NCBI GenBank assembly: GCA_903929135.1
Contig: CAIYTH010000013.1
Span: 1-64,000 of the forward strand
Length of the DNA: 64,000 nt
From: an uncultured Chlorobiales bacterium
GTDB lineage: Bacteria > Bacteroidota > Chlorobiia > Chlorobiales > Chlorobiaceae
Reading direction: 5' to 3'
Below, piece by piece: positions 10,553-47,040 of the stretch. The notes beneath the pieces were generated by a model that did not search any database, was not told the DNA's origin, and saw nothing but the letters and a program-made list of their open reading frames with translations. The position numbers and the translations under genes are program-made. Each line of letters begins with the position of its first letter. The first letter of the stretch is position 1.

Positions 10553-10715
10553 ATCGGGTTCTTCGGGCAAGGTGGCTGAACTTTGCTTTTCAATCCGTCG
10601 CAAGAACCGCGGCGCGATTTTTTATACGGGCTCCCGAATGAACATCACCAGCGAAGCATTTTTCCGAAGTGCTTCTGCGATCAACGGCCTTCCGGAAAAG
10701 AACCGGCCATTATGA
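10553..10715 (+). pseudogene. truncated copy of the engB 5' end and its upstream region
   Basis: ATG 10638 opens a 25-codon frame [20 protein letters not shown] that stops at 10715. It is nearly identical in DNA and protein to the first 24 codons of the intact engB at 12852 ([20 protein letters not shown]). Weaker similarity continues about 85 bp upstream (GGGTTCTTCGGGCAAGGT against GGGTTTTTCGGGGCAGGT at 12771). The GTPase motifs are absent, so this is a relic of a partial duplication in the same orientation, not a gene. It marks the left side of the segment 10.7-12.85 kb. Confidence 0.85.
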
Positions 10716-12516: not shown

Positions 12517-12526
12517 GCCATCTAAA

Positions 12527-12668
12527 GGGCACCTCTGAAAACCTATTGCGCGTCCTGATTGCTGCGTTGGGTGGTGCTCGAAATCCTCATGTACTCTGTG
12601 TACACTCCGGTTCCTGCGCTCCATCCGTCTTGCACTAAGGCCGCTCATGACACTTTTCAGATGCGCCC
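12527..12668. repeat. foldback (MITE-like) element, copy A
   Basis: A 142-bp element with imperfect terminal inverted repeats GGGCACCTCTGAAAA and TTTTCAGATGCGCCC (13 of 15 pair), flanked by the direct hexamer CTAAAG on both sides (12522-12527 and 12668-12673), which looks like a target-site duplication. The 106-bp core (12546-12651), beginning TTGCGCG and containing ATGTACTCTGTGTACA, is about 87% identical to copy B at 46906-47011. No transposase is encoded. Confidence 0.85.
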
Positions 12669-12851
12669 TAAAGCAACGTCGACTAAGGGCATTTGCACGG
12701 TAAGTGGAATAATCCGGATCGCTCCCCGCCAGGCAATGGCAGGATGGGGCGGCCCCAGGCCCAAACAATTGGGTTTTTCGGGGCAGGTTGTTTAGCTTGG
12801 CAGGTCAACCGGCGGCGAGACCGTCTTGCGCCTTTACCAGGATCCCTGTTC

Positions 12852-14746
<1,895 letters not shown>

Positions 14747-14747
14747 T

Positions 14748-14760
14748 GGCACCTCTGAAA
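14748..14760. repeat. isolated end of the foldback element family
   Basis: GGCACCTCTGAAA, directly after the purA stop, is identical to the left end of the foldback element at 12528. The core that should follow is absent, and the CATTCTGAG hairpin repeat starts 38 bp further on. Probably a truncated remnant. Confidence 0.55.
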
Positions 14761-14798
14761 GTGGTCGGGAGTGTGTGGCGCTCTAAACGATAATTCAT

Positions 14799-14881
14799 GT
14801 CATTCTGAGCCCGACTTGTCGGGGGAAGAATCCATAATTGTCCTTCGGGAAGATGGATTCTTCGCTTCGCTCAGAATGACA
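14799..14881. repeat. CATTCTGAG-family inverted repeat
   Basis: TGTCATTCTGAGC (14799-14811) and GAAGAATCCA pair with TGGATTCTTC and GCTCAGAATGACA (14869-14881), giving a long imperfect hairpin of 83 bp. A related copy is at 18285-18376 and partial ones at 11244-11605. It sits between purA and the next gene and could affect transcript ends. Confidence 0.85.
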
Positions 14882-14959
14882 GAACGGCTGTTTTCGTTTT
14901 CTGGTGATAGTTGGTTTCAGGGATGTGAGCTAAGCAGCTCCTCAACATTGACTTGTGCG

Positions 14960-45999: not shown

Positions 46000-46884
46000 A
46001 TGAGCAATATCAACAAGGTTTTGAAGCTGGGACTGCCAAAGGGCAGCCTGCAGGACTCCACCCTCGAACTTTTTGCCAACGCCGGATTCAAGTTTTCCGT
46101 ACAGAGCCGCTCCTATTTTCCTTCGATCGACGACGACGAACTGGAAGCTATTCTTATCCGCGCCCAGGAGATGGCCCGTTATGTCGCCCAGGGGGCTTTC
46201 GACGCAGGCCTGACCGGCAGGGACTGGATCATCGAGACCGACGCCGACGTTGTCGAGGTGGCGGATCTTGTGTACTCCAAGGCCTCCATGAGGCCGGTCC
46301 GCTGGGTGCTCGCCGTGCCTGAAAATTCGCCGATCAAATCGGTCAAGGACCTCGAAGGCAAGCACATCGCCACAGAAGTGGTGAACATCACCAAAAAATA
46401 CCTCGCTAAAAACGGCGTGAACGCTTCGGTGGAATTCAGCTGGGGCGCAACCGAAGTCAAGCCTCCGGAGCTTGCCGATGCGATCGTCGAGGTGACCGAG
46501 ACCGGTTCGTCGCTTCGCGCCAACAAGCTCAGGATCGTCGAAACCGTGCTCGAGTCGAACACCAAGCTCATCGCCAACCGTGCATCATGGGAAGACCCAT
46601 GGAAGCGTGAGAAGATCGAGAGCATGGCCCTCCTTCTCCAGGGCGCCATCAATGCCCAGGGTAAAGTCGGCCTGAAGATGAACGCGCCCAAATCCTCGCT
46701 CGACAAGATCATGTCGGTCATCCCGGCGCTTCGCCTGCCGACCGTTTCCGACCTGGCGGACAACGCATGGGTAGCGCTTGAAGTGATCGTGGCCGAAAAA
46801 ACCGTGCGCAAGCTGATTCCCGAACTGAAGCGGGCAGGTGCCGAGGGGATTTTCGAGTATAATATCAATAAGCTGATCGACTGA
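46000..46884 (+). CDS. hisG: ATP phosphoribosyltransferase, long form
   Basis: HisG joins ATP and PRPP in the first step of histidine synthesis. The 294-residue length marks the long form with its own C-terminal regulatory domain, so no HisZ partner is needed. Family parts seen are [35 protein letters not shown], the PRPP-binding [18 protein letters not shown] and the C-terminal ACT-like domain ([20 protein letters not shown]). It closes the bchK-kinase-LpxH-hisG run. A foldback element and a terminator follow. Confidence 0.96.
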
Positions 46885-46887
46885 GTT

Positions 46888-47027
46888 GGTAGCGCGCTCC
46901 ATCTGTTGCGCGATTTGATTGCTGCGTTGGGTGGTGCTCGAAATCCTCATGTACTGTGTGTACATTCCGGTTTCTCCGCTCCTTCCGCCTTACACTCAAA
47001 CCGCTCACGACGATGGAGCGCGCTACC
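46888..47027. repeat. foldback (MITE-like) element, copy B
   Basis: A 140-bp element starting 4 bases after the hisG stop. Perfect 16-bp terminal inverted repeats GGTAGCGCGCTCCATC (46888-46903) and GATGGAGCGCGCTACC (47012-47027). The 106-bp core (46906-47011) is ~87% identical to that of copy A at 12546-12651 and contains ATGTACTGTGTGTACAT, but the arms are unrelated in sequence to copy A. No flanking target duplication is evident. Confidence 0.87.
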
Positions 47028-47040
47028 ATGGCCGTATCAG

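Follow-up and report, generated by a model that had tools for sequence, protein, structure and literature searches.

Two foldback elements of an uncultured Chlorobiales bacterium share their core, but their terminal arms are unrelated, each arm being complementary to its own partner. Are the ends of such elements kept for their ability to pair rather than for their sequence, as an earlier note on this DNA had proposed? Both elements, subsequently designated copy A (positions 12527-12668) and copy B (46888-47027), lie in a stretch of 64,000 nucleotides, which is referred to as the window. The features at both loci are compiled in Table 1.

Table 1. Coordinates of copies A and B and of their neighbors in the window.
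Feature	Position	Strand	Remark
Left target-site duplication TAAA, copy A	12523..12526	+	sequence; a 4-bp duplication is the rule for canonical copies
5' arm of copy A, GGGCACCTCTGAAAAC, close to the canonical IS5-type terminal inverted repeat	12527..12542	+	ends as in the 1.3-kb IS5-family element of a relative (L371)
Core of copy A, with a lower stem that covaries and an invariant apical module	12543..12651	+	
Copy A 3' arm, complement of its own 5' arm	12652..12668	+	
Right target-site duplication TAAA, copy A	12669..12672	+	element-free site in G004, G005, G017, G019
engB (yihA) GTPase 3' of copy A	12852..13430	+	anchor for locating element-free sites
hisG (ATP phosphoribosyltransferase), 5' neighbor of copy B	46000..46884	+	natural stop TGA 46882-46884; ..KLID* end recurs in relatives
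5' arm of copy B, TGGTAGCGCGCTCCAT, divergent with respect to the canonical end	46887..46902	+	stem extends one base into the core
Copy B core	46903..47011	+	first base 18 nt past the hisG stop codon
3' arm of copy B, perfectly complementary to its own 5' arm	47012..47028	+	

Copies A and B and their family

The initial observation was confirmed on both counts. The cores of copies A and B are 86% identical across 109 bp, whereas the arms of copy A (GGGCACCTCTGAAAA / TTTTCAGATGCGCCC) bear no relation to those of copy B (TGGTAGCGCGCTCCATC / GATGGAGCGCGCTACCA), and each arm is complementary to its own partner. The predicted folds reach -49.9 kcal/mol for copy A (z -3.7) and -66.5 kcal/mol for copy B (z -7.7), the z-scores referring to dinucleotide shuffles. 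Only the CTAAAG hexamer said to flank copy A had to be amended: it does represent a direct repeat, but the true length of the latter is 4 bp (TAAA), since the outermost base of the element is included in the hexamer on either side. To judge from sequence, copies A and B belong to one family of hairpin elements of ~140 bases, which was spread in green sulfur bacteria by an IS5-type insertion sequence and has close relatives in Proteobacteria.

Further copies were collected with the core as query, as the earlier note had suggested. The resulting comparison set comprises 159 distinct copies from many genomes, all fetched by their core; arm sequences were absent from the queries of both the BLAST search and the exact search with the apical 36 bp. 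The Chlorobiaceae genome hosting the window (2.14 Mb) has 20 copies of the core. By BLAST, copies were detected in 24 of the 41 genomes searched, all of them in two genera of Chlorobiaceae, and no match outside the Chlorobiaceae was obtained among these 41. The exact search returned, among the matches listed, many Chlorobiaceae and, outside of these, Gallionella, other Nitrosomonadales, Pseudogulbenkiania, Methylophilus, Methylotenera and a Pseudolysobacter MAG. Rfam scans at gathering scores yielded no described family that matches the element. Likewise, searches of open-access papers, directed at MITEs of Chlorobium, palindromes of the host organisms and the letters of the core, brought up no description of the family.

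Canonical copies and IS5-type mobility

The 159 copies were split into 82 with arms near GGGCACCTCTAAAAAC, subsequently called canonical, and 77 non-canonical copies; the cut-off is arbitrary, intermediates occur and the copies form a continuum. The prevalence of one constant arm sequence among most copies, which the earlier note had counted against its own proposal, is seen by half across genomes, where 82/159 copies are canonical-like, and is not seen in the host genome.

The canonical ends are constant (GGGCACCTCTAAAAA) and correspond to those of a 1.3-kb IS5-family element, of which G020 has three copies, with a TTAA duplication and a transposase of the IS5 family (NCBIfam NF033581, E 6e-86). 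In the relative G014, ~100 ends were counted that are perfect or have one mismatch. Terminal inverted repeats common to the autonomous insertion sequence were found in the canonical copies and in L371, whereas copy B has a trace only. Inspection of the flanks for target-site duplications, which had been proposed as a check, revealed TAAA at copy A and an exact 4-bp duplication in 34 of the 82 canonical copies, as compared to 2.5% expected. No target duplication was found in the non-canonical copies, copy B included. Empty sites, proposed as another check, exist for copy A: in G004, G005, G017 and G019, the matching upstream gene end and the downstream engB gene are present, the element is absent and there is no matching hairpin at this site. 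A DNA search for the empty site of L029 matched only regions of ~70% identity, and at the copy B locus the 3' flanks of relatives are too diverged for an empty-site comparison.

Some further features of the window were noticed in the surroundings of copy A. The first 25 codons of engB are matched by a fragment at 10638-10712 (76% identity), which carries its own leader and is located ~2.1 kb upstream of the intact gene; engB-like fragments also occur near engB in G009, G013 and G015. The leader upstream of engB itself (12757-12798) is conserved in the relatives inspected (CCAAAC..TTGGGTTTTTCGGGCA.GGTTG.TTAGCTT) and has no Rfam match. At 14747-14882, TGGCACCTCTGAAAG, which is similar to the canonical arm, comes immediately after the purA stop; next in line is a CATTCTGAG..CTCAGAATGA repeat, and the core is absent.

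Position relative to stop codons

Among the 77 non-canonical copies, 40 are preceded by a long co-oriented ORF whose stop codon ends 13-18 nt 5' of the core. There is a second group of copies in which the stop lies 1-6 nt 5' of the core and thereby within the arm. When all copies are considered, stops are found on the 5' side of the core in 49 cases and on its 3' side in 4. All three stop codons are used (TGA 16, TAA 15, TAG 9), and the stops at rho, hisG, pfkA and lysA represent natural protein ends. The same spacing recurs in copies across phyla, including proteobacterial ones, the stop being 51-54 nt from the apical motif (nine cases among the matches listed). Many relatives are devoid of the element behind these same genes and manage without it, which speaks against the role proposed below.

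Hairpins of other kinds were also observed at such positions. Past the rho stop, long core-less hairpins take the place of the element in related species (L247 of G000, L244 and L253), and this spot seems to gain hairpins repeatedly. Immediately past the pfkA stop of G004 (L273) there is a 28-bp perfect hairpin with TGGGGTCAGGCCTTGCAAAATTTGCAT, a motif that presumably resembles REP/RAYT repeats.

Pairing of the terminal arms

Complementarity of each arm to its own partner, as described for copies A and B, was recovered beyond these two: over the 77 non-canonical copies, 12.5/18 positions are paired in the own combination and 7.7/18 when arms are swapped between copies. As own-arm pairing exceeds swapped-arm pairing over so many copies, the pattern is neither due to chance nor limited to two copies. 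A test for covariation of the arms, which the earlier note had called for, identified 559 arm pairs that are changed on both sides with respect to the canonical end, 437 of which are still Watson-Crick pairs. Orthologous loci provide individual cases. At one and the same arm pair of the lysA copies, three species have C-G, T-A and A-T. Behind rho, the element is found 14-15 nt past the stop in G004/G005, G012 and G017 with arms that are unrelated to each other, each being self-complementary. The bchY copies of G000 and G007 have the stop codon inside an arm, and here a synonymous GAT/GAC change is accompanied by the matching change in the partner arm. Arm length is constant (15-17 bp) irrespective of whether the stop is inside the arm or not. 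Unpaired arm positions amount to 2.7/15 next to stops and 3.7/15 elsewhere, a difference of modest significance (permutation p 0.04).

Within the outer 10 arm nucleotides of the non-canonical copies, 4.35 positions match the IS5 end, as compared to 2.59 when shuffled (0/2000). Because of this trace of the IS5 end, the non-canonical copies are most readily interpreted as old representatives of this very element. A different origin had been supposed since the 5' arm at bchY equals coding sequence, namely that insertion copied 16-17 bp of host flank as an inverted repeat. This idea was dropped: on its right side, the G000 element is followed by what looks, by eye, like the original tail of bchY, GTACTTC/GCACTTC being repeated, and the non-canonical arms carry the IS5-end trace. 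At bchY of G018 (L406), tandem partial copies of the element lie 3' of the gene with another repeat between them. A second mobile hairpin family (CCCCGG..TTGAAA..CCGGGGCAA ... AATGTCCG.AGGGTT.AA.CCCT.CTGA) occurs inside or beside elements at L252, L276, L336, L342 and L345, where it sometimes replaces one arm.

In sum, copy A is an ordinary MITE, whereas copy B belongs to the old stop-adjacent class, in which pairing is conserved rather than sequence. The main idea that pairing of the ends matters and not their sequence is supported for the class of copy B. Copy A does not exemplify it, being an IS5-type MITE of nearly canonical sequence that has a 4-bp duplication and empty sites.

Could the arms have remained complementary by mutation alone? 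Template switching at replication might correct long imperfect palindromes, so that both arms change together and the hairpins are inert. Copies away from stops likewise possess double-changed arm pairs that are still paired (232/303), whole arm blocks differ among orthologues, as seen at rho, and the arms are free of a wobble bias, all of which would be compatible with such a process. However, it explains neither the fixed distance and orientation to stops (49 against 4) nor the accumulation of strongly diverged arms at these sites (38 copies at stops vs 10 elsewhere), and single-step wobble intermediates do exist (lysA, L163/L186). We consider this explanation unlikely.

The core and the question of the active strand

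The core is composed of a lower stem, which covaries (e.g. CG 87 / AT 37), and an apical part of ~70 nt that is nearly invariant across copies, although this invariance is partly built in because the copies were fetched by the core. Covariation at paired positions, as expected for the structured RNA that the earlier note had listed as an alternative, is observed in the arms and in the lower core stem. A preference of G.U over A.C on the transcribed strand, also expected for a structured RNA, was not found: among the mismatches in the lower stem, A.C outnumbers G.U by ~3:1 (64:21, one fixed column omitted), and in the arms A.C and G.U are even (42 against 34), i.e. there is no strand bias. The wobble counts argue against the mRNA strand and are the reverse of what selection on this strand predicts, but as they ignore the sequence kinship of the copies, the strand bias is a lead and not a test.

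It may be asked whether the opposite strand is active as single-stranded DNA or antisense RNA, the hairpin serving as a protein-binding site and the position behind stops being merely the least harmful one. In addition to the excess of A.C in the lower stem, the consensus fold of the opposite strand is stronger (-38 vs -18 for the mRNA strand), and the near invariance of the apical module across phyla suggests a sequence-specific binder. However, the precise oriented spacing to stops belongs to the sense side, both promoter and partner protein are putative, and the arms do not share the bias of the lower stem. Activity of the opposite strand appears improbable to us.

Origin of the position behind stop codons

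The element might also target stop codons or pre-existing hairpins, in which case position and pairing would be properties of the target rather than results of selection. Indeed, the duplications are T/A-rich and contain TAA or TGA in 11/34 cases, Gallionellales copies have TNA duplications, and other hairpins are found at the same spot past rho in several species. However, fresh canonical copies exhibit no orientation preference, as a stop triplet occurs 11 times in their duplications and its reverse complement 13 times. Since stop triplets are about equally frequent in both orientations, retention is a likelier source of the orientation bias than insertion. Absence of a matching hairpin from the empty site of copy A and the constant arm length, whether the stop is inside the arm or not, also speak against targeting, which we regard as quite unlikely. 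A Rho-independent transcription terminator would fit the location at gene 3' ends and the stable fold, but is a very remote candidate, given that no T run follows the 3' arm (2.5/8 T in stop-adjacent copies, fewer than elsewhere) and that the conserved terminator of hisG (..GGCCTTTTTTTT) is located ~90 nt further downstream.

Other ends around the core

Three Gallionellales/Nitrosomonadales genomes carry the same apical module between AGAAGCTGTCTTAAAAA repeats, and these copies have 3-bp duplications of the TNA type (TTA, TAA, TGA, TCA), as read by eye. At least two terminal-repeat families thus occur with the core, which in part bears out an alternative named in the earlier note. The suggestion made there, that two MITE families captured the same core, is not needed for copies A and B, given that the A-type terminal repeat is still traceable in B-type arms, but it may hold between phyla, the terminal repeat of the Gallionellales being a different one. 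In some Gallionellales copies (L161, L167, L475, L478), one half of the core is interrupted by an extra hairpin (..CGACTTGGCTGGCGTTTTTGCCAGC..).

More speculatively, the core could be a portable regulatory module that has been acquired by two or more unrelated kinds of transposon ends (IS5-type with 4-bp duplications in Chlorobiaceae, TNA-type with 3-bp duplications in Gallionellales) and spread across phyla, with the same orientation and stop distance in each host. Its invariant top would then be read by a putative factor, while the stem would only need to pair. We put this forward tentatively, as a possibility of rather low probability.

Proposed role and comparison with known systems

The reading we favor, with a probability of roughly 0.55, is that an IS5 MITE has been kept as a stop-proximal hairpin that acts on the mRNA of the upstream gene, similar to REP or ERIC. 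It builds on the IS5-type mobility of the canonical copies, on the retention of copies at stops in one orientation and on the conserved pairing of arms and lower stem, all of which were observed; action in the upstream mRNA is what we infer by analogy with ERIC in Yersinia and with stop-proximal REPs. On this reading, the element is a non-autonomous IS5-family transposon (MITE), whose terminal repeats of 16-17 bp form one long hairpin together with the imperfectly palindromic core. In new copies such as copy A, the ends are of the constant IS5 type and a 4-bp target duplication is present. Copies that had landed in one orientation directly past a stop codon, such as copy B, were retained for long and lost end sequence and target duplication, but kept base-pairing through paired substitutions. 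Selection would act on a stem of ~16 bp, the base of which overlaps or abuts the stop codon and which is topped by the sequence-conserved apical module. At the 3' end of the upstream mRNA, this REP- or ERIC-like hairpin may meet the terminating ribosome and 3'-5' exonucleases and could thereby tune translation or decay of the upstream gene.

The family provides a natural series leading from a transposon end to a gene-associated hairpin, with fresh constant-end copies followed by stop-codon copies that keep only the pairing. The fixed stop spacing and orientation open the role of hairpins past bacterial stops to direct tests, not only for the REPs of E. coli but also in green sulfur bacteria and Betaproteobacteria.

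The ERIC/IRU and Correia/NEMIS MITEs comprise 100-200 bp, have terminal repeats and a target duplication, and give rise to long hairpin transcripts with effects on the stability of upstream mRNAs; in the case of ERIC in Yersinia, orientation is said to be crucial for decay of the upstream transcript (PMC2229807). The present family resembles them in size range, in its terminal repeats with target duplication and in the long hairpin, but it differs in sequence and hosts, and it is set apart by diverged yet complementary ends, a fixed stop distance and one core with at least two terminal repeats. REPs likewise are palindromes behind ORFs, and those of E. coli located at most 15 nt from stops have been reported to stall ribosomes and to lower translation (PMC12306157 and earlier work cited there). 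However, REPs are short palindromes of 20-40 nt that are spread by REP-associated tyrosine transposases (RAYT), whereas the present element measures 140 bp (142 bp in copy A) and has IS5-type ends and 4-bp duplications. With IS5-family insertion sequences, represented by the 1.3-kb element of G020, it shares the ends and the length of the duplication, but it is devoid of a transposase, and its core is not part of the 1.3-kb element.
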